Origin: Comamonas sp. BIGb0124 | GTDB lineage: Bacteria > Pseudomonadota > Gammaproteobacteria > Burkholderiales > Burkholderiaceae_C | Direction: 5' to 3' | DNA length: 64,000 bases | NCBI RefSeq assembly: GCF_003752175.1 | Contig: NZ_RJVF01000013.1 | Coordinates: forward strand, 248,001-312,000 | Part shown: positions 33,767-51,315 of the stretch, in pieces | How the letters are laid out: every line of letters begins with the position of its first letter | Position numbering within the stretch: position 1 is the stretch's first letter | Made by a program: the position numbers and the translations under genes | The notes under the pieces: generated by a model | The model's input: the letters and a program-made list of their open reading frames with translations, nothing else | What the model was told of the DNA's origin: nothing | The model's database searches: none

Positions 33767-33772
33767 ACGAAA

Positions 33773-35254
33773 TTACGCCACAGCCAGGTGGTGCGCGCCG
33801 TTATTCAAAACAGGTACGGGTTTTCTCTTACGAATACACAGCAATGCAACAAAAACTGGGAAGAATAGATATCGCGTCATATTCAACAACAAGACATTCA
33901 TATCAGTTATCAACATCAAAATAGGAATCAAAGTAAGCACTGGCAGTATAAATCGCCGCACATCCCAATCTTGCCATTGATAACTCCACATCCTCAAACG
34001 CCTAACAACCAGACCAAGGACTATCCAAAAAGCAAATACACCAATCAATCCAAAATTGATGAAAAATTCTCCGAACTGCCCAAGTACTAAAGTTGTTTGA
34101 CGAGGTGAATCCGGTATATAAGATCCCCGGCCATAGATAATTTCAGTTTTTTCCTTGGTGATCTGATCAGGCTTATATGGAACTATTGATTTTGGAATCG
34201 CAGCAAAAATAGCTGTCAAATAGGTTCTGCCATAAGAAAAATCGTAATCTTTTTCGTAGTATTGCTTCAATGCCAACACCTGAACATCCATGCGCCCCAT
34301 GTCACGCGCCACAATATACTTACTGGCATCTTGGCGTGCCGAATTAAAATTAGCTCTATAGCTACTATCAAACATGGCCAACATGCCGTCTGTGCCTGCG
34401 ATCTTGTACCAATAATAGGTCGTAAGGAATGCAGAGGCCACCAGTGCACCAATCACAATAAATTTTATTCTAATTGGTTTAATCCAAAGACTATACATCC
34501 CAGCAGCAAAAAACAGAGCAAAGATAGTCGAGCTCCGGCTTCCACGCAAACCACCAAAGAAAAGGAAAACAACACCAAAAATCGCCATGAGAATCACAAG
34601 CGTAGAATTTCGAGCAGCCCACGGCTTACCTTTAATAAGGTAAATCACGCCCATCGCAATGAGCAGCTTAAAGCTTTCGGCAAAAAGCATAGGCAAACCC
34701 ATGCCCTCAAAGGGATCTTCTGCGGCGTCCACCAATCCTTCGGATTGACGCTCAGTAAATGTTGCAATGAAACCCGCTATACCACCGAACTTTGAATAGA
34801 CATAAAGCTGCATAAGCAAGCTAAACGCCAACGCCAGAGCGATAACAATCTTGAATCGACGTCGATTAAAGGTATAACCAGTTTGAGCCACTGTAGCTCT
34901 ACTGAATGGGGCATGCACGATAGTGCGATAAATCAGGATACCGAGCAAATTCAGCGTCGCCCAGAGAATCATCCAGTCATCTGCTTGCGAAAGATCTGGC
35001 AAGAACGGCCAATAATTCCAAGAGCGCTGCAAAACAGGGCTAACGAAAAACATCATGACGCCGACCAAGCCGATAATACCAACCGGGTCAAATGATCCCA
35101 TTCGTCCACGCAAATAATCAATCCCATCCCGCAATATGAGAATACCGGATGCCAAGCAAATTACGTAGAACAACCCAGGCAGCTCGACATCGTTCAACAC
35201 GAAGCCCAAGGATATTAGTACGCATGCGAATGCAGATATAGTGAGAGAACTCAT
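33773..35254 (-). CDS. wzy: Repeat-unit polymerase (Wzy), integral membrane
   Basis: 493-aa polytopic inner-membrane protein with about 11-12 hydrophobic helices and one large periplasmic loop (about residues 290-390) rich in Arg, Tyr and Asp (SARQDASKYIVARDMGRMD, YGRGSYIPDSPRQ). Wzy proteins share little sequence, so the call rests on topology, size and location between wzx and the transferases. ATG 35254 overlaps the wzx stop (ATGA); the longer frame to 35308 is antisense to nothing but begins inside wzx. Confidence 0.82.
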   Translation of the reverse strand: MSSLTISAFACVLISLGFVLNDVELPGLFYVICLASGILILRDGIDYLRGRMGSFDPVGIIGLVGVMMFFVSPVLQRSWNYWPFLPDLSQADDWMILWATLNLLGILIYRTIVHAPFSRATVAQTGYTFNRRRFKIVIALALAFSLLMQLYVYSKFGGIAGFIATFTERQSEGLVDAAEDPFEGMGLPMLFAESFKLLIAMGVIYLIKGKPWAARNSTLVILMAIFGVVFLFFGGLRGSRSSTIFALFFAAGMYSLWIKPIRIKFIVIGALVASAFLTTYYWYKIAGTDGMLAMFDSSYRANFNSARQDASKYIVARDMGRMDVQVLALKQYYEKDYDFSYGRTYLTAIFAAIPKSIVPYKPDQITKEKTEIIYGRGSYIPDSPRQTTLVLGQFGEFFINFGLIGVFAFWIVLGLVVRRLRMWSYQWQDWDVRRFILPVLTLIPILMLITDMNVLLLNMTRYLFFPVFVALLCIRKRKPVPVLNNGAHHLAVA

Positions 35255-36492
35255 GATCCTATTTGATCCCGGATGTTTTTCACCAGCACGATGGTGTAGA
35301 GAGCGCATCCTAGCATGGAGCCCACAACCAACGCCCAGACGGCGCCTAATGATCCTTGCGAAGGAATCAAATACCAGCCAACCAAAGCAGTACCGACTGA
35401 AACAGCAAGATTCACATAAACCAGCGCCCGATTTCGGCGAGTGGAGCTTACAACAAAACCATACATACTCATCGCATACTGAAACGGTGCCGCCAAGAAG
35501 ACCCAGAACATAAAATTCTGGACTTCAGGATGAGTCGACTTGACGACAAGCGCAAGGAAAAACTCACCCCAAGCGTAGGCCACGCCCATCCCGATCATAC
35601 CGGTCAAAACCGCAAACCCAACACCAGCCAGTGCAAATTTACGGTACTCGGCATATCGACCCGCCTGAAACGCGACAGTCATGCGAGGTGCAAGCGCTTG
35701 TCCAAGAGAGATGATCACGAGACTGCCCACCTGAACGAAGGCAGCCGCACTGGCAAAATATCCCAATTCGGACATGCCGACATAACCGCCCAGTATCAAG
35801 CGTGGAATATTTACATTGAGACTGATTAACAAGGCGGACACACCCAGCGGAAGTCCTGTGTACAAAATCAACTTCAGAGACGCAGAATTTAGCCGTTCGC
35901 CCCCAGTTCCTATTAGACTCTTTCGTCGGTTCCTATCGTAAAAAATGCATACCGCTGCCGTGACAAATAGGACGGCCAAAAGCCCGGCCAGGAGATCACC
36001 AGTGACGATCACAGTCGTCAGAATGGCAAAAACGACGAGCACACTTTTCAGAGCCAGCGAAAAGGCAATAACACGAAAATGATAAAGGCGTTGGAACAGC
36101 CCATAAAATAGCTCAGATTGGTATTCGAATGTCTTGGCCAATCCAACCAAAAGAACAGCTGAGATCACGAGACGGTTATCGTTAAGCGCAACGACCAACC
36201 CCATCAACACCAGCATCCCGATGAAACTGGTAATCAGTCGGGTACGCTCATATACTGAGAGTGGCACTTCCTGCTTTACATCAGTCATCAACTGAATTCT
36301 CAGCCCTAAATTACAGAAAACCAAAACAGGAGTCGCTAGAGAAACAGCATAGCTATAGACTCCTACGCCCTCGGCATTCAGAATTCGTCCCAATGCAAAA
36401 ATGATAAAAAACTGAGAAAGGGCATAGGACCCATTGCCAAGCAAAGTCCAAATTGCCCCTTTTCCAGTTTTGCCCAAAGACTTATTGAACAA
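35251..36492 (-). CDS. wzx: Repeat-unit flippase (Wzx)
   Basis: 413-aa MATE/MVF-type transporter with about 12 transmembrane helices. It begins GAIWTLLGNGSYALSQFFIIFALGRILNAEGVGVYSYAVSLATPVLVF, the usual polysaccharide-synthase N-terminal pattern. It flips undecaprenyl-PP-linked repeat units to the periplasm, partner of Wzy. It ends with a basic cytoplasmic tail. Confidence 0.9.
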   Translation of the reverse strand: MFNKSLGKTGKGAIWTLLGNGSYALSQFFIIFALGRILNAEGVGVYSYAVSLATPVLVFCNLGLRIQLMTDVKQEVPLSVYERTRLITSFIGMLVLMGLVVALNDNRLVISAVLLVGLAKTFEYQSELFYGLFQRLYHFRVIAFSLALKSVLVVFAILTTVIVTGDLLAGLLAVLFVTAAVCIFYDRNRRKSLIGTGGERLNSASLKLILYTGLPLGVSALLISLNVNIPRLILGGYVGMSELGYFASAAAFVQVGSLVIISLGQALAPRMTVAFQAGRYAEYRKFALAGVGFAVLTGMIGMGVAYAWGEFFLALVVKSTHPEVQNFMFWVFLAAPFQYAMSMYGFVVSSTRRNRALVYVNLAVSVGTALVGWYLIPSQGSLGAVWALVVGSMLGCALYTIVLVKNIRDQIGS

Positions 36493-36500
36493 AGGATTAC

Positions 36501-37472
36501 CTAAATCTTATAAAACTTCTTGAACCAGTCAACAAACCGTCTCAATCCTTCATCCAGAGGAATATTGGGAGCATATCCAAAATCACGAACTGAATCATCA
36601 ATGTCTGCATATGTTGAGTAAACGTCACCTGGCTGCATTGGCAAAAAGTCCTTTGAGGCTTCTTGACCCATATGCCGCTCCAGCATCGATATCATATCCA
36701 TCAGGTACTCTGGCTTATTGTTCCCCAGGTTATAAACCTTGTGCAACCCCAAACCCAACTTCTCGGGGCCGACATCGAGAATCCTCAATATACCACTCAC
36801 AATATCGTCGATATAAGTGAAATCCCTTTTCATATCACCATTGTTATAGACAGGGATAGATTTCCCGGCGACTATCGATTGAGCAAATTTGAAATAAGCC
36901 ATATCGGGCCGCCCCCACGGTCCATACACCGTGAAGAAACGCAAGCCAGTCAAAGTTAGCCCATACAATCGAGCATAAGTCTCCGACATCAACTCGTTGG
37001 ATTTCTTAGTTGCTGCGTACAAAGACACCGGGTGATCGACTCTATCACTCACAGAGAAAGGTATCTTAGTATTTGCGCCATAAACCGAAGATGACGATGC
37101 ATAAAGCACGTGTTTCACATTAGAATGGCGACATCCTTCCAGCACAGTCATCGTCCCTACAAGATTGCTATCTATGTAGGCAAACGGATTATCAATGGAA
37201 TAGCGCACGCCAGCCTGAGCGCCGAGATGAATGACTCGATCAAACTTCTCCTTTTCAAACAGGCTGGCCATCGCCGCTCGATCAGCAAGATCGATTGTTC
37301 GGAAATCGAAGTTCTTATGAGATGTCAATTCAGCAAGTCGCGCTTGCTTCAAAGTGACATCGTAATAATCGTTTAAATTATCGATCCCAACGACTGTGCA
37401 TGTACGCTTCACGAGCGCCTGCACCAAGTGAAAACCAATGAATCCGGCGGCTCCGGTTACCAGAATTTTCAT
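36501..37472 (-). CDS. UDP-glucuronate 4-epimerase
   Basis: 323-aa extended SDR converting UDP-glucuronate to UDP-galacturonate. It shows the NAD site GAAGFIGFH, the HLGAQAGVRYSI motif specific to this group, the catalytic Ser and Tyr in SSSVYG and YAATKKSNE, and FTVYGPWGRPDMAYFKF. Its start overlaps the stop of ugd (4 nt), which makes its substrate. The pair predicts galacturonic or glucuronic acid in the polymer. Confidence 0.94.
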   Translation of the reverse strand: MKILVTGAAGFIGFHLVQALVKRTCTVVGIDNLNDYYDVTLKQARLAELTSHKNFDFRTIDLADRAAMASLFEKEKFDRVIHLGAQAGVRYSIDNPFAYIDSNLVGTMTVLEGCRHSNVKHVLYASSSSVYGANTKIPFSVSDRVDHPVSLYAATKKSNELMSETYARLYGLTLTGLRFFTVYGPWGRPDMAYFKFAQSIVAGKSIPVYNNGDMKRDFTYIDDIVSGILRILDVGPEKLGLGLHKVYNLGNNKPEYLMDMISMLERHMGQEASKDFLPMQPGDVYSTYADIDDSVRDFGYAPNIPLDEGLRRFVDWFKKFYKI

Positions 37473-38821
37473 TTTTCGCTCAACTTTGCTTGCCGTCCCA
37501 CGCCAACGTAACTAAATCCTTCACGCGCAATCACAGCCAAGTCATATTGATTTCGGCCATCAATAATTATGGGATTCTTGAGCAACTTCTTGATCGTTTT
37601 GAACTCCGGATTCCGGAAAAGCTTCCATTCGGTGACAAGAATCAGTGCATCAGCATCAATCAGAGCTTCATACTGATTTTCGGAGATAGTCAATTTTCCA
37701 TTCGAAAACACTTCTTCGGAATACTCCAGTTTTGCGGTTTCTTTCGCAACAGGATCGTACGCGGTGACTGTTGCCCCAGCATCGAGCAATGCCTTAATCA
37801 AGACAGTGCTCGGCGCTTCGCGCATGTCATCTGTTCCGGGCTTAAATGCCAAGCCCCAGACAGCAAATTTACGCCCCGCCAAATCACCTTGAAAAGCGTC
37901 ACTAACCTTTTGAAACAACGTTTGTTTTTGCTGATCATTTCGCAGCTCGACAGCGCGAAGTACGCTGGCTTCGAAGTCTACTTTGTCAGCCATGTGAACC
38001 AAGGCTTTGACATCCTTCGGGAAGCAAGAACCACCATACCCCGCCCCAGGATAGATAAAATGGAAGCCAATACGTTGATCGCTGCCAATTCCCAAACGGA
38101 CATGTTCAACATCTACATCCAGACGTTCACACAAACTGGCGATTTCGTTCATAAACGAAATTTTAGTTGCAAGCATGGCATTCGCTGCGTACTTCGTCAT
38201 CTCTGCATCGCGCACCCCCATAAACACCAATCGTTGATGGTTACGATTGAATGGCGAATACAGTTCACGCATCACATTACGTGCATTTTCGGATGATGCG
38301 CCAACGATAATTCGATCAGGTCGCATAAAGTCGTCAACAGCCGCACCCTCTTTCAGGAATTCAGGATTTGAAACAACATCGAAAGCAATCTCTACTCCCC
38401 GCTTCGCCATTTCTTCGTTGATGGCTTGCCGAACCAAGTCCGCTGTACCGACTGGAACGGTCGATTTATTTACGACCACGCTAGGCCGGGTGATATTGGC
38501 CCCAATTTCACGTGCAACTGCTAAAACGTATTTAAGATCTGCCGAACCATCTTCCCCCGGAGGTGTACCAACTGCAATGAAATAAAGGTCGGAGTCATTC
38601 ATTGCCTCCTTAAGGGATGTGGTGAACTTCAGACGACCCTGCTTATGACAGTTGATAACGACATCATCAAGTCCAGGCTCATAAATAGGCAAGATGCCTT
38701 TTAGAAGATTATCAACCTTAACCTGATCCACGTCCACACAGGTTACGATATTACCCACCTCGGCAAAACACGCACCGGTGACAAGACCGACATACCCCGT
38801 TCCAACTACAGTAACATTCAT
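37469..38821 (-). CDS. ugd: UDP-glucose 6-dehydrogenase
   Basis: 450-aa enzyme making UDP-glucuronate from UDP-glucose with two NAD. It has the N-terminal GTGYVGLVTGACFAE Rossmann motif, VGTPPGEDGSADLKYV, the substrate loop NPEFLKEGAAVDDF and the catalytic Cys in GYGGSCFPKDVKAL. The C-terminal domain starts AVWGLAFKPGTDDMREAPS. Its location between the sugar transferase and the epimerase matches its use in this locus. Confidence 0.97.
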   Translation of the reverse strand: MNVTVVGTGYVGLVTGACFAEVGNIVTCVDVDQVKVDNLLKGILPIYEPGLDDVVINCHKQGRLKFTTSLKEAMNDSDLYFIAVGTPPGEDGSADLKYVLAVAREIGANITRPSVVVNKSTVPVGTADLVRQAINEEMAKRGVEIAFDVVSNPEFLKEGAAVDDFMRPDRIIVGASSENARNVMRELYSPFNRNHQRLVFMGVRDAEMTKYAANAMLATKISFMNEIASLCERLDVDVEHVRLGIGSDQRIGFHFIYPGAGYGGSCFPKDVKALVHMADKVDFEASVLRAVELRNDQQKQTLFQKVSDAFQGDLAGRKFAVWGLAFKPGTDDMREAPSTVLIKALLDAGATVTAYDPVAKETAKLEYSEEVFSNGKLTISENQYEALIDADALILVTEWKLFRNPEFKTIKKLLKNPIIIDGRNQYDLAVIAREGFSYVGVGRQAKLSEK

Positions 38822-38846
38822 TTTTCTACCTCTATATACTATTTAA

Positions 38847-39725
38847 TTACTTCGAACCATGGCCAGTACAAACTACCCATACAGTTCTTAAAAATATGGA
38901 AATATCATTAACAATCGACAACTGCTGAACATATCTAACATCCAGCAATACACGTCGACGATAGCTCACCGTATTTCGTCCACTGACTTGCCACAAGCCT
39001 GTAATTCCAGGACGGACGGCAATGTAGCTCGACCAATATTTTCCATACAGCGTTTTCTGCGAAAGCAAGCAGGGCCTAGGACCTACAAGGCTCATATCGC
39101 CTTTGAGAACATTCCAAAATTGCGGCAGCTCATCCAAACTTGTTTTTCGAATGAAATGTCCAAACCTCGTAATTCGCGGATCATTATCCAATTTCTGATA
39201 CTTATTCCACTCTTCAGCCGCAGCAGGATTCGCTTCTAAATATTTAATCAAAACGGCCTCAGCATCCGGCACCATTGATCTAAATTTATAGAATTCGAAG
39301 GTTTCACCCTTATACCCGTACCGTTTCTGAGAAAACAAGATCGGGCGACCAGAGCTGATCCATACACCAACTGCGAGGGCAAAATACAGCCACCCAAAGA
39401 AAGCAAAAAACAATAAACTACCCAACACATCTACGCCGCGCTTGAGAAACTTCACGACGATTGAATGATTTATATTTTCGTCGACGTCGGTATCACGAAG
39501 CACAATGGGGGTGTTCACCTCATCTCCCGGCATCGACTCCGCGCCTCGTTGCCTAGCCAGGGACTGCGTCATTGGCGTATCTGTGGCGCGCAGAGCCATG
39601 ACCGGCCCGGGATCGATATGTGTCACGGGTGATGTTTTGTTCATTGTGCTTTTAGGCGATGAAACCGATTCAACGGCATCTGTATGTGGCATAAGTGCAC
39701 TATCTGTCGTCCGGCTGGCGTACAT
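38847..39725 (-). CDS. Undecaprenyl-phosphate sugar-1-phosphate transferase, WbaP/short form
   Basis: 292-aa initiating transferase that attaches the first sugar-1-P to undecaprenyl phosphate. The C-terminal bac_transf domain (about residues 90-292) has KRGVDVLGSLLFFAFFG (reentrant membrane helix), FYKFRSMVPDAE, KLDNDPRITRFGHFIRKTSLDELPQF, GDMSLVGPRP and RPGITGLWQVSGR. There are no four extra N-terminal TM helices; instead about 85 residues of polar, Ser/Thr-rich sequence. The long start is supported by AAGGAG 6 nt upstream. It probably uses UDP-glucose or UDP-galactose. Confidence 0.93.
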   Translation of the reverse strand: MYASRTTDSALMPHTDAVESVSSPKSTMNKTSPVTHIDPGPVMALRATDTPMTQSLARQRGAESMPGDEVNTPIVLRDTDVDENINHSIVVKFLKRGVDVLGSLLFFAFFGWLYFALAVGVWISSGRPILFSQKRYGYKGETFEFYKFRSMVPDAEAVLIKYLEANPAAAEEWNKYQKLDNDPRITRFGHFIRKTSLDELPQFWNVLKGDMSLVGPRPCLLSQKTLYGKYWSSYIAVRPGITGLWQVSGRNTVSYRRRVLLDVRYVQQLSIVNDISIFLRTVWVVCTGHGSK

Positions 39726-39816
39726 GGAATGCTCCTTCTTGAAATACGGGAGTGATCAGGTAAACATCGCCGTGTTAAAAATGTGTGGCCAAGATTACCA
39801 GTACACCCCTGGCTGC

Positions 39817-40692
39817 TTAACCTTGCCGCTCACGCAAATATGCGGCGAAAGCCTGACCCAGTTCGGGGTGGCGCACACCGAAGTCCACATTGGCCTTCAG
39901 GTAGCCCAGCTTCGAACCGCAGTCGTAACGCACGCCGTCGTAGCGGTGTGCAATCACCTTGCGTTTCTTCAGCAGTTCGGCAATGGCGTCGGTGAGTTGG
40001 TACTCGCCGCCCTTGCCGCGGGGAATGTTGCGCAGTTCTTCAAAGATCTGCGGTTCGAGGATGTAGCGTCCCACCACGGCCAGGGTCGAGGGGGCATCGG
40101 CCGGTGCCGGCTTTTCCACAATGCCGTTGACCAGTTCGTTGTGGTCGTCGATGCGCTCGGCGCTGACGATGCCGTAGCTGCCGGTCTTGTCGCGCGGCAC
40201 GTTCTCCACGGCCAGCACCGAAGCCTGGTGTTCTTCATAGGCTTGCACCATCTGCTTGAGCGCACCGGGCTTGCCGTCGATCAGGTCGTCGGCCAGCAGC
40301 ACGGCAAAGGGCTCGTCGCCCACCAGGTTCTCGGCGCACAGCACGGCGTGGCCCAGGCCCAGGGCACCGGGCTGGCGCACATAGGCGCAGGTCACACCGG
40401 CCGGGGTCACCGATTGGGCCAGCTTCAGCAGTTCGGTCTTGCCGGCTTGTTCCAGCTCCACTTCCAGCTCGTAGGCCTTGTCGAAGTGGTCGGCGATCGA
40501 GCGCTTGGTACGGCCAGTGACAAAGATCATGCTGGTGATGCCGGCTTCGCGCGCTTCTTCGACAGCGTACTGGATGAGCGGCTTGTCCACGATCGGCAGC
40601 ATTTCTTTGGCAATGGCTTTGGTGGCAGGCAAAAAGCGGCTGCCCAAGCCGGCCACGGGGAACACGGCAGTGCGAATCTTCTTGATAGTCAT
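39817..40692 (-). CDS. galU: UTP-glucose-1-phosphate uridylyltransferase
   Basis: 291-aa enzyme making UDP-glucose, which feeds ugd and galE. It has the N-terminal [29 protein letters not shown], the [12 protein letters not shown] motif and a C-terminal hexose-binding part ([24 protein letters not shown]). ATG 40692 is preferred with AGGGAA upstream; the 9-residue longer frame lacks a signal. Sequence here is GC-rich, unlike the AT-rich block just downstream. Confidence 0.96.
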
Positions 40693-40767
40693 ATGAGATT
40701 TCCCTAGCTTTCTAATCAAAAGTCGTTGAGTTTTTAGATGGGGTGATGTGTGCAGCGCAGGGCCTGC

Positions 40768-41583
40768 TCAGGCACTGCGCTGTGTGTCTTTTTGAAGGAT
40801 GTGTGCGCCGGCGGCGAGGCTCGCCTGGGCGGTGGCGCTGTCGATGGCGCCCGACTGGCCGGCAGCTGCACCAAAACGGCGCTCGCGATGGCCAAACCAC
40901 TCGAACGCGGCCTGCAGCTCCGCGGTACCGAAGGTGGGGAACAGCACATCCGAGAAGTACATCTCTGTATAGGCCATCTGCCACAGCAAGAAGTTGCTGA
41001 TGCGGATCTCGCCGCCGGTGCGGATCAGCAGATCGGGTTCGGGCAGGTCGCCGGTGCTCAGGTGGCGAGACAGCCCAGCCTCGTCCAGTTCGGTCACCGG
41101 GCTGTTGGGGTGGGCGGCCTGCCAGCGGCGCATGGCCTGCAAGATATCCCAGCGGCCCCCGTAGTTGACGGCAATGCTGAGCGTGAAGCGGGTGTTGCCG
41201 GCTGTCAGCGCATGCACGTCGTCGATCATCTTGCGCAGCGGTGCGTCGAGCTGGGTGGTGTCGCCGATGATGCGCAGTTGCACGCCTTCGGCATGCAGCT
41301 CGCTGACTTCTTTGCTAAGGTAGCGCATCAGCAGCTTCATCAGGCCCGAGACTTCGTCTTGCGGGCGGCGCCAGTTTTCGGTGCTGAAGGCGAACAGGGT
41401 GAGGCATTGCACGCCCGCATCGATGCAGGTCGTGACGATTTGTTTGACGCGCTTGGCGCCGGTGGCATGGCCCACCGCCCTGGGCAGCGCGCGTTGAGCG
41501 GCCCAGCGGCGGTTGCCGTCCATGATGATGGCAACGTGTCGGGGCGTTTGTAGCGGCCCGTCTGTTGTCGTTTCAGTTTGCAT
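40768..41583 (-). CDS. uppS: Isoprenyl transferase (undecaprenyl diphosphate synthase)
   Basis: 271-aa cis-prenyltransferase. Signatures include HVAIIMDGNRRWA with the catalytic Asp, FAFSTENWRRP, VNYGGRWDI, PDLLIRTGGEIRISNFLLWQMAYTEMYF and the C-terminal FGHRERRFG. It makes the C55 carrier used by peptidoglycan and polysaccharides. The usual uppS of this group sits between frr and cdsA; this copy heads a polysaccharide operon, so it may be a second, locus-dedicated enzyme. It has a folded leader just upstream. Confidence 0.93.
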   Translation of the reverse strand: MQTETTTDGPLQTPRHVAIIMDGNRRWAAQRALPRAVGHATGAKRVKQIVTTCIDAGVQCLTLFAFSTENWRRPQDEVSGLMKLLMRYLSKEVSELHAEGVQLRIIGDTTQLDAPLRKMIDDVHALTAGNTRFTLSIAVNYGGRWDILQAMRRWQAAHPNSPVTELDEAGLSRHLSTGDLPEPDLLIRTGGEIRISNFLLWQMAYTEMYFSDVLFPTFGTAELQAAFEWFGHRERRFGAAAGQSGAIDSATAQASLAAGAHILQKDTQRSA

Positions 41584-42398: not shown

Positions 42399-43106
42399 TC
42401 AGCGGCTGGGTGCAGCGTGGCCGGTGCGGGGAGCCTCCTGCATCGCCCTGCCCTGCAGGTTCCAGCCGTACTGCACGTGCCGCCACACCATCAGGCAGCT
42501 GCGTTTGCCCTGCTGGGCCAGCACCACCGTTTCTTGCGGAGAGGCACTGCGGGTGTAGACATCCACCGTCGGCAGCAGTGCGTTGCGGGTGTAGCCCGGC
42601 AGTTCGGCTTTGGCGACGGCAGAGCAGGCCTGGGCCTTGGTGCTGATGGTTTCGACCAGCATCGAGCAGCCCAGCCCGTCGGGCTCGGGCACGCTGACCA
42701 GCGACATCAATGAATTGCCGCTCTGGGCTTCCATGGCGGTGAGGCTGAAGAGTGCACTGTCGTTGGGACTGGCCCGGTTCCAGTCCATCAGCACGTCTTG
42801 CCGCTGGGCGGCGGCCGTGGCCCCGCGCGAGATCAAAGCGATGCCATCCACGCACCGGCGTATGCCGGCGCGCCGTGCGGTCTGGGCCAGCAGCGGCTGC
42901 GAAGGCGCGGCCGGCTGTAGCGTCCATTTGCCATGGGCATCGGCCGCCGGGGCGCTTTTGCCGGCATGCAGGGGCTGGGATCGGGCCGGTGCAGGCAGGG
43001 TGCCGATGCCGGCTGCGCCGAGCAGCGCCAGTGGAGCCAGCAGTTTGAGCGACAGGCTCTGCCCGGCGCGACGCGGGCCGCGCAAAAAGCTCGACAAGAC
43101 AATCAT
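42399..43106 (-). CDS. Exported 235-aa protein of unknown function in the adhesin operon
   Basis: N-terminal signal or anchor (LKLLAPLALLGAAGIGTLPAPARSQ). The mature part contains pairs of Cys (RRCVDG, LGCSMLVE, AQACSAVAK, KRSCLMVW) that could form disulfides, and beta-type segments (GNSLMSLVSVPEPDGLG). Start 43106 overlaps the stop of the DUF2827 gene (ATGA); a much longer frame upstream is antisense-like and rejected. Last gene of the YadA operon; probably periplasmic. No family is recognised. Confidence 0.65.
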   Translation of the reverse strand: MIVLSSFLRGPRRAGQSLSLKLLAPLALLGAAGIGTLPAPARSQPLHAGKSAPAADAHGKWTLQPAAPSQPLLAQTARRAGIRRCVDGIALISRGATAAAQRQDVLMDWNRASPNDSALFSLTAMEAQSGNSLMSLVSVPEPDGLGCSMLVETISTKAQACSAVAKAELPGYTRNALLPTVDVYTRSASPQETVVLAQQGKRSCLMVWRHVQYGWNLQGRAMQEAPRTGHAAPSR

Positions 43107-44227
43107 GATTGAAACAGCGCTTGCAGGGCCGCACCGTAGTGCGCGACGTTGGGGGGGGCACACGGATCCAGCGCGGCCAGAAACTGGCGGGCCTGCTGCC
43201 GGTAGCGTACGAGCTGCGCGTCGTGCACCCCAAACGCCGTGCGCAAGGCCACGCCGCCGACCAGGCAGTCGAAATCGGGGTAGCGGTAGCCGCAATCGCC
43301 CAGCCAGGCCGAGTTGTGGATCAACGGCCAGCCGCCCCACAGGGCTTCGTAATACAGGTAGTTCTGGCCGTTTTCCCAATGGTGCGAGACCAGTGCGTCG
43401 GCCTGCGGCCCCAGGATGTCGGTGATGGGCAGGCGCGGCTCGAAGCTGGCCAGGCCATGGTTGACGAGATCCAGGCTGCGGGCAAAACGCACGAACAGCG
43501 CGTTTTCTTTCAGGCCCATGGCGTTGTAGACCCGCAGGTGTTCGATGAAATCGGGCTGCGCGCGGTGTGCGGCGTCGCACAGCAGCATGGGCAGGTGGCA
43601 GGTCTTGACCATGCAGAGATTGGGTTCGCACACCGCCAGCCGCCAGCGGTCGCGCCCGGGCCGGTAGTCGAAGTCGACTTCGGCCCTGCCCTGTGCCCGC
43701 AGGTGGCGGATCAGGCCGGCGGGGCTCCACAGGTGCGGCATGGTGCTGACGGGTGCGCGCAGCACGTGTTGGTAATAAGAGGTGCAACTGTGCTCGAAGG
43801 CGGGCAAGGTCCAGACGGCGTCGTACGGTGTACCCGAAGCCTGCATGCCCGGCGGCAGGCCGTAGATGATGCGTTCGATGTCGATCACGTAGTCGTTGGC
43901 GACGTGCATGGCGACCACCCGCCCGCCCCGGGCATGAAAGGCGCGGCTCCAGTCGGGCGCGAGCTGGGCACTGAGTTCGATGACGACGTCGAGCCGTTGC
44001 TGCGCCGTGGCCAGGTCCATCACGGGGGCTGGCGAATGGGCCAGCAGATCCCGATGGGCATCGGGGCCAGCGGCGCCGTCGTGCACGATCCAGGTCTGCG
44101 ACACCACGGGTGAGGCCTGCAACAGCATGGCCAGGTAAAAGCAGTTCTGGAAAATGCCGTTTTCCCAAACCGATTGCGGCCCGTCGCGCAGCATGAGGGT
44201 GATGCCGACCCGCAGGTTCTGTCTCAT
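43103..44227 (-). CDS. DUF2827 protein, putative glycosyltransferase (copy 2)
   Basis: 374-aa protein of the DUF2827 family, known to me mainly from Burkholderiales. It begins RVGITLMLRDGPQSVWENGIFQN and has LDVVIELSAQLAPDW, CDAAHRAQPDFIEHL and the C-terminal SHHWENGQNYLYYEALWGGWPLIHNSAWL. That last block resembles the donor-site E-x7-E/GxP region of GT-B glycosyltransferases (an Ala-Leu-x-Gly-Gly-x-Pro-Leu-x-His pattern). No signal peptide, so cytoplasmic. It is a diverged tandem copy of the gene before it and overlaps both neighbours by 4 nt. Confidence 0.85.
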   Translation of the reverse strand: MRQNLRVGITLMLRDGPQSVWENGIFQNCFYLAMLLQASPVVSQTWIVHDGAAGPDAHRDLLAHSPAPVMDLATAQQRLDVVIELSAQLAPDWSRAFHARGGRVVAMHVANDYVIDIERIIYGLPPGMQASGTPYDAVWTLPAFEHSCTSYYQHVLRAPVSTMPHLWSPAGLIRHLRAQGRAEVDFDYRPGRDRWRLAVCEPNLCMVKTCHLPMLLCDAAHRAQPDFIEHLRVYNAMGLKENALFVRFARSLDLVNHGLASFEPRLPITDILGPQADALVSHHWENGQNYLYYEALWGGWPLIHNSAWLGDCGYRYPDFDCLVGGVALRTAFGVHDAQLVRYRQQARQFLAALDPCAPPNVAHYGAALQALFQS

Positions 44228-45360
44228 GCCGCCCCCTTGCGGTGGCGGGGGTCGAGCAGGGCCATCTGCTGGCCGTAGGCGCGCAGGTTGTCGGGGCCGC
44301 AGGGTTCCAGTCCTGCCAGAAACGCCTGTCGGCGGCTGGCCTGGTCGCGATCGTCGGCGCGGTGCTGGGCCCGGGCGGTGGCGATCTGGGCAGCGCCGTG
44401 GTCGATGTCGAAGCCGCTGTAATAGTAGCCCTGCCCGGCCTGCTGCAGCCAGGGCGAGTTGTGCACCAGGGGGTAGCCGCCATGCAGGGCATCGAGGTAC
44501 AGGTAGTTCTGCATGTTGGTCCACTGGTGCGAAACGACCAGGTCGACACCGCGCGTGGCCATGAAGCCCGCAAAATCATGCCGTTGCTCGAGCGCCAGCC
44601 GGCCCGCAACGCTCAACGCCAGGCCGGTACACAGGTGGGCAAACGTGGGGTGTTCGGCAAACTGCACGGTATTGAGCAAGTGCACGCAAGACAAGCTGTC
44701 CGCGGCCTGCCGGTAGGCGGCATCGCAGATCAGCATGGGCAGCAGCCCGCTTTTGACGACCGACACGTTGGGCTCGAACACGGCGGCACGCCAGGGCCGG
44801 TGAATGCTGCCGCCGTCGAAACCAAAGGCATGGCCCTCGGCCTGCACGGCACGCACGCGCTGGGCCAGAAACTGGCTGCTCCATATATAAGGCATCACAT
44901 ACACCGGGCAGCGGTGCAGCGTCACCATCAAGGGCAGCAGATGGGCGAACATGGGCAGCAGCCACACCTCGTCGCACCGCTGGGCCCGGGAGAAGTACGC
45001 GTCGCGCCCGAACACGCTGGGCTCGGCCAGGTTGACATAGGGATGGCCGCAGGCCTGGAACACCACCCGTTTGCCCAGGGCCCGCAGGTAGTCCAGCCAT
45101 TCCAGATCGAGCCCGCCGGCGAGCTCGATCATCACATCGATGTGGTGGGTGGCCTCGCGCGGCCGCATGACGGGGAACTGCAGCCCCAGCACTTGCGCTT
45201 CGTGCGGCAGGCCGGCCATTTCGCCCACGTCGACCAGCACCACGCTGCGCACGTTGGGCAGCTCTTGCATGAGCATGGCCAAGGCCAGCGCGTTCTGGCC
45301 GATGCCGTTTTCCCACAGGCTCTGACCCTGCCGGGTGAGTACCGAAATACCGACTCGCAT
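44224..45360 (-). CDS. DUF2827 protein, putative glycosyltransferase (copy 1)
   Basis: 378-aa DUF2827 protein: RVGISVLTRQGQSLWENGIGQN, IDVMIELAGGLDLEWLDYLRALGKRVVF, PYIWSSQFLAQ, AVFEPNVSVVKSGLLPMLICDAAYR and LYLDALHGGYPLVHNSPWL. Same order of motifs as copy 2. Sits 24 bp after the BamE-OmpA gene. Gene context with a Ser/Thr-rich autotransporter suggests that it modifies that adhesin; this is inference. Confidence 0.87.
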   Translation of the reverse strand: MRVGISVLTRQGQSLWENGIGQNALALAMLMQELPNVRSVVLVDVGEMAGLPHEAQVLGLQFPVMRPREATHHIDVMIELAGGLDLEWLDYLRALGKRVVFQACGHPYVNLAEPSVFGRDAYFSRAQRCDEVWLLPMFAHLLPLMVTLHRCPVYVMPYIWSSQFLAQRVRAVQAEGHAFGFDGGSIHRPWRAAVFEPNVSVVKSGLLPMLICDAAYRQAADSLSCVHLLNTVQFAEHPTFAHLCTGLALSVAGRLALEQRHDFAGFMATRGVDLVVSHQWTNMQNYLYLDALHGGYPLVHNSPWLQQAGQGYYYSGFDIDHGAAQIATARAQHRADDRDQASRRQAFLAGLEPCGPDNLRAYGQQMALLDPRHRKGAA

Positions 45361-45383
45361 GAATGACGACGAAAGGGGATGGC

Positions 45384-46280
45384 CTAGGAGGCGGATCGGG
45401 GAACGACTTCGACCTCGACCCGGCGGTTCGGCGCCATGCAGCTGATGCGCTGGGCCTTTGCCGCCTGGTCGCACTGCACCACCGGGTTGGCCTGGCCCCT
45501 GCCGCTGGCATGGATGAGGTGGGCGGGCACGCCACGGCTCACCAGGTAGCTGCGCACGGCCTGCGCGCGGCGCTGCGACAAGGCGATGTTGCCGGTGGGG
45601 CTGCCGATGGCATCCGAATAGCCGATGGCGTCGATGCGCTCGGCCGGGGTCTGGCGAAGCTGTTCGGCCAGGCGGTCGAGCTGATCGCGGCCGGCGGGCT
45701 GGATGTCTTGCAGGCCGCTCTTGCCGAAAGCGAACAGCGCATCGCCCTGCAGGGTGAACTGGCGGGTGCTGCGCAGGGGGGCCAGCGGCGCGGCGGCAAA
45801 AGGGCTGGCCACGGGTGTGGCCTGGGCCTGGTTGCTCCAGCGGCTGGCGCAGGCCCGGGGCTGCCAGTAGAACGAGCGTGCCACGCCTTCCAGATCGAAC
45901 AGCACCTTGAACTGGCACGACTGCACGCGGTTGTCGGCCTCGTGGAAGTTGAGCACGTAATCCCACTCGCGCACCACGGCCAGGCCTTCGCTGAAATGCG
46001 GCGGGCCCAGCAAGGCCTGGATCTGCGGTTTGTTGAGTCCGGTTTTCACCAGTTGCAGCTTGGATTCGGGCACAAACACGCCGCGCTGGCGCATCTCGCC
46101 GGCCGCGACGTCGGGAAAGCGGATTTCACCGGCCCCCGAGCCGTCGTCGGCGATGGAGCGGCTGATCGAACCGGCGCAGGCCGTGAGCAGCAGCATCAGG
46201 GCGGCGGCGGCGGCAAGAGCCCAGCGCGAGGGCCGGACCGGCTCGCTTCGCAGGCCGAGTGGGGTGTGTTGCAGCGTCAT
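45384..46280 (-). CDS. BamE-OmpA fusion lipoprotein
   Basis: 298-aa outer-membrane lipoprotein with lipobox LLTAC at about residue 34. A SmpA/OmlA (BamE-like) domain follows (about 65-150: LQLVKTGLNKPQIQALLGPPHF, REWDYVLNFH, CQFKVLFDLEGVARSFYW), then an OmpA peptidoglycan-binding domain (about 185-295: GDALFAFGKSGL, IDAIGYSDAIGS, LSQRRAQAVRSYLVSRGV, NRRVEVEV). OmpA domains bind peptidoglycan and BamE domains bind the BAM complex. ATG 46280 is preferred, with AAAGGGA upstream. It follows the YadA gene by 17 bp, so it probably helps that adhesin assemble or anchor. Confidence 0.9.
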   Translation of the reverse strand: MTLQHTPLGLRSEPVRPSRWALAAAAALMLLLTACAGSISRSIADDGSGAGEIRFPDVAAGEMRQRGVFVPESKLQLVKTGLNKPQIQALLGPPHFSEGLAVVREWDYVLNFHEADNRVQSCQFKVLFDLEGVARSFYWQPRACASRWSNQAQATPVASPFAAAPLAPLRSTRQFTLQGDALFAFGKSGLQDIQPAGRDQLDRLAEQLRQTPAERIDAIGYSDAIGSPTGNIALSQRRAQAVRSYLVSRGVPAHLIHASGRGQANPVVQCDQAAKAQRISCMAPNRRVEVEVVPRSAS

Positions 46281-46297
46281 GGTGCGTATCCCTTTGC

Positions 46298-47932
46298 TTA
46301 CCACTGGAAGCCCACGCCGGCGCCGGCCGTGGGTTTGGAGCGGGTATTGACCGATGTACTGGCTTTGACCACCCAGTTGCCGTTTTCAGAAATCTTGGAA
46401 ACCCCGACCGCCACGGCCGATTCGCCGCTGTAGTAGCCGGCGCCAGCCATGACCATGCTTTTGCCGGCCTGTGTGGGCTGGGGCAGAGACGAAGCGGCCA
46501 GGGCCGCGGCGATGCCGGCGTTGGCATTGCGTTCGACCGAATGGATCTTCTGGTTCATGCCGGCGGCCACGCGGTTGAGCTGGTTCACGTTGGCCGCATC
46601 GGTGCCGTTGACGCCTTCGCCTAGATTGGTGAGGCGGCGCTCCTGCCCGGCCGAGCCGATCGACACGGTCTTCTCTTCGAGCGCCACCGAATCCGCACCC
46701 AGCGCCACCGAGTTGGCGGCAGAAGCCACGGCCCGCGAGCCGATCGCCGTCGCCTGTGCCGCGGTGGCCTGAGCGCCCTCGCCCACGGCGACCGAACGGG
46801 TGCCCTGCGCCACCGAACCGGCACCGGCCGCCAGGCTGCCGCTGCCGGTGGCCTGCGCCGCTGCGCCGGTGCCAGTGCCGTTGGCATTGAAGTACTTGTT
46901 GTTGTTGTAGACGGTCGATACCGTGGTGCTGAGCGCGCTCACGGTGCTGTTGGTGCTGCTCAGCCCGGTGGACAGGCTGCTGATGCTGCTGTTGACCGTG
47001 CTCAGCCCGGTCGAGGTGCTGGTCGACAGACTCGCCACGTTGCTGTTGGTGGTGCTCAGGCCGGTCGAGAGCCCATCGACCCGGCTGTTGACGGTGCTGA
47101 GCCCCGTCGAGGTGCTGGTCGACAGGCTGGCCACAGTGCTGTTGGTGGTGCTGAGGCCGGTCGAAAGCCCGTCGACCCGGCTGTTGACCGTGCTGAGCCC
47201 CGTCGACGTGCTGCTCGACAGGCCCGCCACGGTGCTGTTGGTGGTGCTCAGGCTGGTCGAGGTGCTGGTCGACAGGGTGCTGAGGTTGGTGTTGGTCGAG
47301 GCCAGTCCGGTCGATAGATTGTCGACCCGGCTGTTGACGGTGCTCAGCCCGGTCGATGTGCTGGTCGACAGGCCGGCGACGTTGCTGTTGGTGGTGCTCA
47401 GGCCGGTCGAAGCCGTGGTCGACAGTGTGCTGAGATTGGAGTTGGTGGTGCTCAGCCAGGCCGAGATGCCGTCGATGCTGTTGTTGACGGTGCTCAGGCT
47501 GGTCGAAGTGCTGGTCGACAGCGTGCCGAGACCGGTGTTGGTGGTGCTGAGCCAGGCCGAGATGCCGTCGACATTGCTGTTGACCGTGCTCAAGCCGGTC
47601 GACAGCGAGTGGAACTGCGCGCCGTTGATGGCGTCGGTGCTGGTCGCGGTGACGGCACCGGCCGAGATGCCGGTCAGGGTGTTGGTGCCCGACGGGCTGT
47701 TGAGGTCGAGCGTGCCCTGGATGTTGACATTGCCGTTGGTCACGGTGGCCCACTGCGCCTGTGCCGATTCGCCGCCCAGCACCAGGGCCAGCAGCACGGG
47801 CACGGCACACAGGGGCCGCGCCCAGAGGGGCCTGTGTTCAGCCAACAAACGCCACGTTCCGCAAAAGTTGCCGGTGTCGTGCCGAATCCCTGCTGCTGCC
47901 CTCAGCTGGGGGGTTTGGGTGGTCTTGAACAT
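46298..47932 (-). CDS. YadA-type trimeric autotransporter adhesin
   Basis: 544-aa type Vc adhesin. A long signal of about 58 residues (cleavage near SAQAQ) precedes a stalk at residues 111-340, built of Ser/Thr-rich 32- and 18-residue repeats. A YadA head region lies at about 355-425 (GSLAAGAGSVAQG, SVAVGEGAQATA, NSVALGADSVAL), then the neck NLGEGVNGTDAANVNQL. The C-terminal membrane anchor at about 456-544 has the four-strand beta pattern and ends with Trp. The head lies after the stalk, the reverse of classical YadA. AAGGGA precedes ATG 47932; first gene of the operon. Confidence 0.95.
   Translation of the reverse strand: MFKTTQTPQLRAAAGIRHDTGNFCGTWRLLAEHRPLWARPLCAVPVLLALVLGGESAQAQWATVTNGNVNIQGTLDLNSPSGTNTLTGISAGAVTATSTDAINGAQFHSLSTGLSTVNSNVDGISAWLSTTNTGLGTLSTSTSTSLSTVNNSIDGISAWLSTTNSNLSTLSTTASTGLSTTNSNVAGLSTSTSTGLSTVNSRVDNLSTGLASTNTNLSTLSTSTSTSLSTTNSTVAGLSSSTSTGLSTVNSRVDGLSTGLSTTNSTVASLSTSTSTGLSTVNSRVDGLSTGLSTTNSNVASLSTSTSTGLSTVNSSISSLSTGLSSTNSTVSALSTTVSTVYNNNKYFNANGTGTGAAAQATGSGSLAAGAGSVAQGTRSVAVGEGAQATAAQATAIGSRAVASAANSVALGADSVALEEKTVSIGSAGQERRLTNLGEGVNGTDAANVNQLNRVAAGMNQKIHSVERNANAGIAAALAASSLPQPTQAGKSMVMAGAGYYSGESAVAVGVSKISENGNWVVKASTSVNTRSKPTAGAGVGFQW
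46913..47602 (-). repeat. DNA repeats coding the adhesin stalk
   Basis: Tandem units of 96 bp (32 aa, STVNSRVDGLSTGLSTTNST and 12 more) alternating with 54-bp (18 aa) units. Copies at the 3' part (46950-47250) are nearly identical, those toward the signal peptide more diverged. Such DNA is prone to length change by recombination. Confidence 0.9.
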
Positions 47933-48891: not shown

Positions 48892-49371
48892 TCAACTGGC
48901 GGCACTGCCCAGGATCGACGCTTTCTGTGCGGCATATTCTTCTTCGGTGTACACGCCCACCACGTACAGATCCCTGGCCTTCTGCAGGCGATCGGCCACT
49001 TGCGGGCCCAGATGGTTGGTCGGCGCGACGAACACGGCGGGTTTGGGCGCGGCCGCCGGCGCGGCTTGCACGGCCGGCTTGGGTTTGGGCGGCGCCTTGA
49101 CCTTGGGCGCGCTGCGTGCGGTCTTGTAGGCCCACAGCCAGCCGATCACCGTCCACCCGAGCAGCAGGTCGACGGCGGCGATGCGCGGCAGATCGGGATG
49201 CTTCTTGAGGGCGCCCTCGATGATGGGCAGCACATAGAAAAGTGCCGTGGCGAACAGGAAGCTGTCGGCCATCAGGCGGCCAAAAAAGCCCAGCGCAAGA
49301 TAAGGCTGCAGCGCCGACGACCACGCCAGCACCAGCCACAGCCCTGCCAGGCCGGCTCGAAGGTAAGACAT
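48892..49371 (-). CDS. Superinfection-immunity-like membrane protein with SHOCT tail
   Basis: 159-aa protein. Two or three N-terminal hydrophobic helices include LPRIAAVDLLLGWTVIGWLWAYK, the signature of the superinfection-immunity family (T4 Imm-like). A Lys/Pro/Ala linker (about 95-120) follows. The C-terminal QKARDLYVVGVYTEEEYAAQKASIL is a SHOCT domain, a short oligomerising tail. Its function in chromosomes is not known. It stands alone, with its own terminator. Confidence 0.8.
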   Translation of the reverse strand: MSYLRAGLAGLWLVLAWSSALQPYLALGFFGRLMADSFLFATALFYVLPIIEGALKKHPDLPRIAAVDLLLGWTVIGWLWAYKTARSAPKVKAPPKPKPAVQAAPAAAPKPAVFVAPTNHLGPQVADRLQKARDLYVVGVYTEEEYAAQKASILGSAAS

Positions 49372-49746: not shown

Positions 49747-51315
49747 ATGCCGAGGTCCAAGAACCCATCGCAGCCGACCACGCTGGTGTGCGTGGTGCTG
49801 GCCATGGCATTCACGATCTTGAGCGCACTGGGGGTGCTGGCCCTGCAGATCAAGCTGACTCGCGAGCACGAGGACGAGGCGCTGGCCCACGCCACGCTGA
49901 CGCAGCTCGACGACACCTTCGACCAAGCCACCCATGCCGTCGCGCTGGTGCAGCGCCTGCCGGCCAATGCCCCGTGCGACGAAAGCACGCTGGTGTTGTT
50001 GCGCGAGACCGTGGCCTCGCTGTCTCAACTGCAATCGCTCGGCTTGTTCCGGGGCAACACGGTGTATTGCTCCAGTCTCTATGGCGACCGCAGCACGGCT
50101 CTGCCGCCCGTGCAGCCGCCCGGCGGTCGCACCCTGGAGCTGGTCGACGCGGGCGCGCCGGGCAATCCATCGGGCCGCGCCAACCTCATGCTGCGCGACA
50201 GCACGGCGGCCAACGGCGTGGGTGTCATGGCCACCATCGACACCCAGCATCTGCGCGCGGCGCTGCATTCGGCCTATCCCGGCCCGCACCTGATCCTGCA
50301 GGTAGGCGATGCGACCCTCGACACGCAGGGAGCCGTCGTGCCGGCCAGCAGTCACCCCAAGAACATCCGGCAGGTGGCTTCGAGCCGCCACTCGGCCAGC
50401 GTGCTGCTGGCGCCCAGCCACGGCCTGTCCATCGGCAGTTGGAGCGCCTACTGGCCTTCGTATCTGTTCATCGCGGCGCTGAGCGTGCTGGTCGGGCTCA
50501 TGGTGGGGCGGCTCACGCAGCGCCTCTACACCACGCGCCGGCTGGTCGAGGACGGCATGCGGCGCGACGAGTTCGTGCCTTACTTTCAGCCCGTGGTCTC
50601 GAGCACCGATGCCTCGGTGCTGGGGGTCGAGGTGCTGGTGCGCTGGCACACGGCGCGCGCCGGCGTGCTCAGCCCCGACCAGTTCATCCCGGCCGCCGAG
50701 CGCGAGGGCATGATCGTGCCGCTCACCCATCACCTGATGGAAAAGACCGGCGGCATGCTGGTGGCCAACATCGATCGCGTGCCGCGCGGCATGCAGGTCG
50801 CCTTCAACGTCTGTGCCGAGCACTTCTCGCTCGAAAGCCTGCTGCAGGATTGCCAGCGTTTTCTCGACCGCACCTCGGCACGCGGCCTGCAGTTGATGCT
50901 CGAGCTGACCGAGCGCCAGCCGATTGCCGAGGACGAGCAGACCGACCGCATCCTCAAGCGCCTGCGCGAAATGGGCGTCAAGCTGGCGATCGACGATTTC
51001 GGCACGGGCAATTCGAGCCTGGCCTACCTGCACCGCTTCAATTTCGACATCATCAAGATCGACCGCATGTTCGTCGGCATGGCGCGCCCGGACACGATCT
51101 CGCACCACATCATCGACAGCATCATCGACCTGGCGCTGAACATGAATTTCGAGATCGTGACCGAGGGCGTCGAAACCGAAGAGCAGGTGCGCTACCTGCG
51201 CCAGCAGGTGAAAGACCGCGGCAGCCTGCACATGCAGGGTTATCTGTTTGCGCGGCCGATGATGCTCGAAGACCTGATCGTCTGGCTGCGCCAGCGACGT
51301 GCCATCCCGGCCTGA
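49747..51315 (+). CDS. CSS-motif cyclic-di-GMP phosphodiesterase (EAL)
   Basis: 522-aa inner-membrane protein. TM1 is at about 13-33 and TM2 at about 237-257; between them lies a periplasmic CSS domain with the YCSSLYG motif, which senses redox state through a disulfide in E. coli PdeC-type enzymes. The cytoplasmic EAL domain (about 275-515) keeps EVLVRW, ELTER, DDFGTGNSSLAYL, IIKIDRMF, TEGVETEEQ and QGYLFARP, so it should hydrolyse c-di-GMP to pGpG. It sits between the adhesin operon and uppP and may control adhesion or polysaccharide. Confidence 0.94.
   Translation: MPRSKNPSQPTTLVCVVLAMAFTILSALGVLALQIKLTREHEDEALAHATLTQLDDTFDQATHAVALVQRLPANAPCDESTLVLLRETVASLSQLQSLGLFRGNTVYCSSLYGDRSTALPPVQPPGGRTLELVDAGAPGNPSGRANLMLRDSTAANGVGVMATIDTQHLRAALHSAYPGPHLILQVGDATLDTQGAVVPASSHPKNIRQVASSRHSASVLLAPSHGLSIGSWSAYWPSYLFIAALSVLVGLMVGRLTQRLYTTRRLVEDGMRRDEFVPYFQPVVSSTDASVLGVEVLVRWHTARAGVLSPDQFIPAAEREGMIVPLTHHLMEKTGGMLVANIDRVPRGMQVAFNVCAEHFSLESLLQDCQRFLDRTSARGLQLMLELTERQPIAEDEQTDRILKRLREMGVKLAIDDFGTGNSSLAYLHRFNFDIIKIDRMFVGMARPDTISHHIIDSIIDLALNMNFEIVTEGVETEEQVRYLRQQVKDRGSLHMQGYLFARPMMLEDLIVWLRQRRAIPA

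Follow-up and report, generated by a model that had tools for sequence, protein, structure and literature searches.

The window analysed here, a 64,000-nucleotide stretch from Comamonas sp. BIGb0124, carries five consecutive minus-strand genes, all open and intact, that run from position 47932 to position 42399 (Table 1). The adhesin and lipoprotein genes are separated by 17 nt and the lipoprotein and first DUF2827 genes by 23 nt, while the last two junctions are ATGA overlaps of 4 nt. The initial annotation had described the same strand, first gap and overlaps, and only its figure of 24 bp for the second gap needs correcting. Just downstream of the operon, on the same strand, the window continues into a polysaccharide cluster comprising two GT4 genes, a pyruvyltransferase, a flippase, an epimerase, a UDP-sugar dehydrogenase, a sugar transferase, galU, and uppS.

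Table 1. Genes of the adhesin operon in the Comamonas sp. BIGb0124 window.
Feature	Position	Strand	Size and basis
YadA-type trimeric autotransporter adhesin (TAA)	46298..47932	-	544 aa; Pfam YadA_anchor/stalk/head
TpgA-like BamE-OmpA lipoprotein	45384..46280	-	Pfam BamE + OmpA; NCBIfam NF047726; lipobox LLTAC
DUF2827 protein, paralogue clade I, predicted cytoplasmic GT-B glycosyltransferase	44224..45360	-	378 aa; PF10933; tree; shared core residues
DUF2827 protein, paralogue clade II, predicted cytoplasmic GT-B glycosyltransferase	43103..44227	-	374 aa; PF10933; structure model
Exported protein with four conserved Cys, "S family" (TAA-associated)	42399..43106	-	No Pfam family; relatives in DUF2827 loci

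The adhesin is a type Vc autotransporter, with a C-terminal YadA anchor (PF03895, E 1.6e-20, 73.3 bits) together with stalk (PF05662) and head (PF05658) repeats, all matched above the Pfam cut-offs. Residues ~110-345 form a Ser/Thr-rich coiled-coil stalk of the SLST type. Serine and threonine make up 53% of residues 111-340, in keeping with the proportion of about half first estimated for this region, and 26 LST tripeptides occur there. SLST repeats were found in 60 of 61 TAAs linked to DUF2827 genes and in 2 of 40 unlinked ones, the count being zero in the other 38; both exceptions (L149 and L151) belong to genomes that carry DUF2827 elsewhere. In the sole linked TAA that lacks SLST (L034), the repeats are rich in Ser/Ala. 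The median Ser+Thr content was 43% in linked stalks against 20% in unlinked ones (p 5e-13). Spacings of 7, 11, 14, 18, and 25 residues between SLST motifs fit a coiled-coil register in which Ser/Thr occupy outward-facing sites.

Both DUF2827 proteins match PF10933 at full length and far above its curated cut-off of 25 bits, the clade I protein with E 5.6e-102 (341.7 bits, profile positions 1-361 of 362) and the clade II protein with E 4.7e-126 (420.9 bits, positions 1-362 of 362). Neither has a signal peptide, as had already been read from the sequence. The open-access literature searched describes no function for DUF2827, and searches of Pfam, NCBIfam, PHROGs, and PDB sequences gave no link to a known enzyme family. 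Among 63 members there was no Pfam match to GT4 (Glycos_transf_1) or to GT41/HMW1C, and hhalign comparison of the DUF2827 profile with sets of the two families gave non-significant probabilities of 0.3% for GT4 and 2% for GT41 (E 0.023 for one comparison). As a reading of motifs rather than of structures, the GT4 EX7E motif appears to have Asn in place of its first Glu in DUF2827 (N286...E294), and N203/K208 resemble the GT4 R/K pair.

The clade II protein, the one that was modelled (P0002, pLDDT 95.1), is predicted to adopt a GT-B fold over its whole chain, matching BshA with Z 24.6 and an rmsd of 3.8 over 324 residues and giving a best Foldseek E of 9.5e-9 to a GT-B fold; SdgB, GtfA, and OGT, all protein O-glycosyltransferases, are among its fold matches. 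This model bears out the GT-B-like architecture proposed in the initial annotation. Because the GT4 and GT41 profile comparisons were not significant, the glycosyltransferase assignment is drawn solely from the predicted fold, and a GT-B fold in itself does not prove transferase activity.

The DUF2827 tree resolves three paralogue clades that match gene order, and pairs or triplets of paralogues are the rule across loci. Clades I and II occur together in 82 of 87 loci; many relatives also have clade III, which the genome of Comamonas sp. BIGb0124 lacks. All three clades share a common core that includes E201, N203, K208, N289, H304, and N305. As every clade keeps this core, there is no support for a degenerate partner among the paralogues. 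It is also conceivable that DUF2827 proteins are inactive cytoplasmic chaperones of GT-B fold that keep the Ser/Thr-rich stalk export-competent, as GtfA-GtfB systems include inactive partner proteins, paralogues here come in pairs and triplets, and the transferase activity is a prediction. We consider such a role unlikely, since the three clades have in common a set of polar core residues, K208 among them, and position 294 is acidic in the sequences inspected, features that a structural function alone would not call for.

The genomic survey, for which the best 80 of 378 DUF2827 stretches were kept, placed a same-strand TAA gene at most 4 kb away in 78 of 87 DUF2827 loci, and because this same-strand pairing recurs so often, the neighbourhood reflects more than chance. 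The link to autotransporter genes anticipated from the single locus is therefore very strong for TAAs. Among the nine loci without a nearby TAA, five lie close to a contig end; four (L031, L086, L105, and L108) have ample flanks and yet no adjacent TAA. The same DUF2827-TAA arrangement is seen in a locus of B. cenocepacia found in the plasmid collection. In the family sample, a YadA anchor was present in 5/5 DUF2827 genomes against 11/151 (p 8e-7), and in the phylum sample in 6/6 against 58/396 (p 8e-6). The downstream polysaccharide cluster, directly adjacent and on the same strand in the window, would suit DUF2827 glycosyltransferases that serve exopolysaccharide synthesis instead of the adhesin. 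We regard this as very improbable, as the recurring neighbour of DUF2827 is the TAA gene and not a polysaccharide cluster, and DUF2827 presence tracks the stalk motif of the TAA.

The Ser/Thr-rich stalk class is coupled to DUF2827 both in cis and in trans. A repeated SLST motif (at least 2 matches) was found in 4 of 396 genomes, all of them DUF2827-positive (p 1.5e-8). Within Burkholderia, DUF2827 is present in each of the 56 genomes that have the motif, and the motif is missing from the four without intact DUF2827 (p 2e-4), although, because genomes within one genus are not independent, these p-values serve only as guides; five further Burkholderia genomes have DUF2827 and lack the strict motif. 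The distribution of the family is patchy, spanning Alpha-, Beta-, and Gammaproteobacteria as well as plasmids of Burkholderia, a pattern also expected of genes that merely travel together in a mobile module, with enzymes that do not act on the stalk. This explanation is hardly credible: SLST-type TAAs lie far from DUF2827 in positive genomes (L149 and L151), and motif and DUF2827 are jointly absent in Burkholderia, so the coupling extends beyond linkage.

We therefore favour, with a probability of about 0.8, the reading that these genes form a self-contained glycosylated-adhesin operon in which the DUF2827 proteins act in the cytoplasm as dedicated O-glycosyltransferases of Ser/Thr-rich TAA stalks. 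The predicted GT-B fold, the TAA association, and the stalk-motif coupling together support the interpretation first put forward for this operon, with glycosylation as its deduced element. The same reading is favoured by further glycosyltransferase-like genes in related loci, namely HMW1C-family genes in Caballeronia and, in 15 loci, a gene for a TPR protein whose C-terminus resembles a glycosyltransferase. DUF2827 enzymes very probably act on the SLST-type adhesin, most likely by attaching sugar. We infer the catalysis, the sugar, the O-linkage, and the tasks of the individual enzymes and accessory proteins along the following lines. Clade I and II enzymes, the presumed obligate core, would transfer sugar from nucleotide-sugar donors to Ser/Thr of the stalk before export, and clade III probably extends or diversifies the glycan. 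The modified residues would cover the surface of the coiled-coil stalk with its SLST-type heptad/hendecad repeats, and the stalk would then be secreted via Sec and BAM and trimerise. The TpgA-like lipoprotein may tie the TAA anchor to peptidoglycan as a brace, and the exported protein with four Cys may aid the adhesin in either the periplasm or the outer membrane.

Several known systems resemble this arrangement. The BAHT heptosyltransferases TibC and Aah carry out Ser-directed glycosylation of autotransporters and are encoded beside their substrate, an arrangement shared by the DUF2827 genes, for which Ser-directed modification is likewise suggested; however, Pfam and PDB sequence searches gave no match of DUF2827 to BAHT, and the proposed substrate of DUF2827 is a trimeric adhesin of type Vc. 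Another parallel is offered by SdgB and by the GtfA/GtfB enzymes of Gram-positive serine-rich repeat adhesins, which also have the GT-B fold and whose substrates are long adhesins with Ser-rich repeats. No sequence similarity to DUF2827 was detected, and the proposed target of DUF2827 is a coiled coil of three chains in a Gram-negative host. HMW1C/NGT enzymes of GT41 offer the parallel of a dedicated cytoplasmic GT-B enzyme beside its adhesin, with modification before export (predicted here), but they act as one enzyme where two to three DUF2827 paralogues occur. HMW1C-type enzymes glycosylate adhesins of the autotransporter kind (PMC5303269), and eight Caballeronia loci have a gene of the HMW1C family close to DUF2827, so Asn in N-x-S/T sequons of the adhesin might be the target. 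This is distinctly unlikely, since Asn sequons are depleted in the linked TAAs (0.66 of expectation) while Ser/Thr is strongly enriched, and the GT41 profile match was not significant.

Serine-rich SLST repeats like those of DUF2827-linked TAAs have been published for the Burkholderia TAAs BoaA/BoaB, BMA1027/BPSL1631 (BpaC), and BCAM2418, and O-glycosylation of BCAM2418 is only speculated upon (PMC2955633, PMC4021183, PMC7142374). The repeats are thus already known; the passages of these three publications covered here name no modifying enzyme and mention neither DUF2827 nor its link to this stalk class, and the gene neighbours of BCAM2418 did not appear in the portions of the literature searched.

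The lipoprotein combines BamE-type (E 1e-12) and OmpA (E 7e-19) domains in one chain encoded beside a TAA, the arrangement that characterises TpgA, which binds the membrane anchor of the TAA through its N-terminal domain (PMC13082670). It matches the NCBIfam TpgA model NF047726 over 261 residues (E 3.3e-43), with 147.8 bits against a 350-bit cut-off, and is named TpgA-like only. It further differs from the TpgA/AtaA pair of Acinetobacter in that the adhesin here is short and most DUF2827 loci are without the lipoprotein, which occurs in 12 of 87. Of the two roles proposed earlier, attachment to peptidoglycan is retained as a predicted brace, whereas there is no need to invoke BAM-dependent assembly, because the protein is a relative of TpgA, a known brace of the membrane anchor. 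The exported protein matched no Pfam family; its core is well modelled, and the search for PDB matches returned none of confidence (best Z 7.3, START-like; Foldseek E >0.02), which is not evidence for a new fold. Its "S family" relatives occur in 54 of 87 DUF2827 loci, and a divergent member adjoins an alphaproteobacterial TAA without DUF2827.

A broader proposal, to which we give somewhat better than even odds, is that the DUF2827 proteins are protein O-glycosyltransferases of a new family and that the three paralogues assemble a glycan on Ser/Thr in coiled-coil register, with clades I and II as obligate initiators, coating a whole class of TAAs that includes the Burkholderia SLST adhesins and those of the bee-gut Snodgrassella. 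If true, DUF2827 would gain a function, dedicated autotransporter glycosylation, so far the province of HMW1C-type enzymes and heptosyltransferases, would gain a new glycosyltransferase family, and enzymes could be named for the adhesins with SLST repeats, in which O-glycosylation is so far no more than a guess. The system may also offer a compact route to the sugar decoration of repetitive coiled coils.

The two DUF2827 proteins of the window, P0001 and P0002, are encoded in an operon with a YadA-type trimeric autotransporter adhesin (TAA), a lipoprotein, and an exported protein. All five genes lie where the initial annotation had placed them, with a first gap of 17 nt as it reported, a second of 23 nt rather than 24, and ATGA overlaps of 4 nt at the last two junctions. 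The stalk (adhesin residues 111-340), described there as about half Ser/Thr, is 53% Ser+Thr, and the DUF2827 N-termini indeed show no signal peptide.

Features of the window (first eight rows) and of comparison loci
Feature	Coordinates	Strand	Remarks
YadA-type adhesin, 544 aa	47932-46298	-	Pfam YadA anchor, stalk, head
BamE-OmpA lipoprotein	46280-45384	-	Pfam BamE and OmpA
DUF2827 protein P0001, clade I	45360-44224	-	Pfam DUF2827, full length
DUF2827 protein P0002, clade II	44227-43103	-	Pfam DUF2827, full length
Exported protein	43106-42399	-	
Polysaccharide biosynthesis cluster	29756-41583	-	directly downstream of operon, same strand
Small protein, Imm_superinfect match (PF14373, 42.8 bits)	48892-49371	-	between adhesin and EAL gene
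CSS-motif EAL phosphodiesterase gene	49747-51315	+	~1.8 kb upstream of adhesin, divergent
Divergent four-Cys family members	L235:6333-7067; L236:4702-5592		beside TAA genes, genomes without DUF2827
HMW1C-family glycosyltransferase gene	L071, L075, L078, L090, L096, L100, L103, L106, ~2.5-4.7 kb	-	near DUF2827 block, eight Caballeronia loci

P0001 and P0002 share 36% identity, and sequence searches of Pfam, NCBIfam, PHROG, and the PDB related DUF2827 to no known enzyme family. An AlphaFold2 model of P0002, built with 63 homologues as input (pLDDT 95.1, pTM 0.92), bears out the GT-B-like reading first made from sequence: the top Foldseek rows are GT-B glycosyltransferases, led by BshA (E 9.5e-9) and including O-GlcNAc transferases and GtfA, while VIA-align superposes the model on BshA (Z 24.6, rmsd 3.8 over 324 residues) and SdgB (Z 20.9). 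No significant similarity emerged when the DUF2827 profile was compared with profiles of GT4 and GT41 sets; thus, the predicted GT-B fold is firm, but the CAZy family stays unassigned.

DUF2827 is rare, found in 5/151 genomes of a family sample and 6/398 of a phylum sample, with hosts that include Burkholderiales, Neisseriaceae (Snodgrassella), Sphingomonadales, Caulobacteraceae, Methylobacterium, and Luteimonas. We assembled 87 non-duplicate loci from the best 80 of 378 stretches in GTDB genomes, with 10-kb flanks, plus nine stretches from the genome search. A same-strand YadA-anchor gene lies within 4 kb in 78 of them, in agreement with the anticipated DUF2827-YadA association, and five of the other nine loci sit near the end of a contig. 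In the DUF2827 tree, three large clades match gene order (I, with P0001; II, with P0002; and III); their common core includes W21, N23, G24, D80, E84, E201, N203, K208, N289, H304, and N305. Clades I and II co-occur in 82 of these 87 loci and presumably work as a pair; clade III, present in 55, may act as an extender, and the Comamonas sp. BIGb0124 genome has clades I and II only. A conjugative Burkholderia ambifaria plasmid (L227, NZ_CP086300.1) carries the whole operon, adjoining type VI secretion genes.

The adhesins linked to DUF2827 form a single type. SLST, a tetrapeptide of the Ser/Thr-rich stalk repeats, is present in 60 of 61 linked TAAs versus 2 of 40 chosen unlinked TAAs from the same phylum, with median Ser+Thr of 43% and 20%, respectively (p 5e-13). 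The sole linked TAA lacking SLST has a Ser/Ala-rich repeat instead and adjoins a very divergent DUF2827. Both SLST-bearing unlinked TAAs (L149, L151) come from genomes with DUF2827 elsewhere; in genome G318, a single chromosome carries L151 and the DUF2827 triplet (L031) at a distance of ~2 Mb, a possible natural case of action in trans. Four of 396 genomes had at least two matches to an LSTSTSTGLS nucleotide pattern, and each of the four carries DUF2827 (p 1.5e-8). Among 65 genomes of the G468 genus (probably Burkholderia, from locus layout) DUF2827 was present in all 56 motif-positive genomes and the motif absent from all four without an intact DUF2827 gene (p 2e-4). Because genomes of one genus are not independent, all p-values given here serve as guides only.

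SLST repeats have been described in BoaA and BoaB (PMC2955633), in BMA1027/BPSL1631 (PMC4021183), and in BCAM2418, for which O-glycosylation was suggested and no enzyme named (PMC7142374). Among the open-access full texts covered by the search, one paper mentions DUF2827, and only in passing. Dedicated cytoplasmic glycosyltransferases for autotransporters are already a known idea; what appears new within the literature searched is the enzyme family, its class of acceptor, and the arrangement as three paralogues.

Successive SLST units are spaced by 7, 11, 14, 18, or 25 residues, distances made up of heptads and hendecads, placing Leu in the coiled-coil core and Ser/Thr at flanking positions. 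Asn-x-Ser/Thr sequons stand at 0.66 of expectation, which disfavours N-linkage. The best-supported mechanism is cytoplasmic, in which clade I and II enzymes would act on the nascent stalk, attaching an O-linked sugar to Ser/Thr that face outward; export, trimerisation, and anchoring of the modified chain would follow, with the TpgA-like lipoprotein as its brace. The operon lipoprotein matches the TpgA model NF047726 (E 3.3e-43, under the curated cut-off), and in TpgA the N-terminal domain both binds the AtaA anchor and braces it (PMC13082670). UDP-sugars could be supplied by the polysaccharide cluster, which comprises two GT4 genes, a pyruvyltransferase, flippase, epimerase, UDP-sugar dehydrogenase, sugar transferase, galU, and uppS.

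The family of the exported protein has four invariant Cys and is found in 54 of the 87 loci (best 80 of 378 plus nine); the protein's core is modelled well, yet gave no confident match to a known fold. Genome G204 encodes a divergent family member immediately downstream of an alphaproteobacterial-type TAA that lacks an associated DUF2827, and G342 has a similar layout; therefore, this protein probably serves the TAA itself, not sugar transfer. A TPR protein lies in or adjoins the adhesin operon in 15 loci (among them L038, L042, L044, L086, L094, and L105), in some as two tandem copies; Pfam covers its TPR part only, and its C-terminus, read from sequence, looks like a glycosyltransferase. In a B. 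cenocepacia locus, a TAA with 94 SLST comes first, and after it a TpgA-like gene, then DUF2827 genes and the TPR protein. Six further DUF2827 loci (L032, L036, L040, L047, L093, and L105; Pfam check on L036 only) have an EAL-type cluster no more than 8 kb from the block, and this recurrence of EAL genes, in the window and elsewhere, hints at c-di-GMP control.
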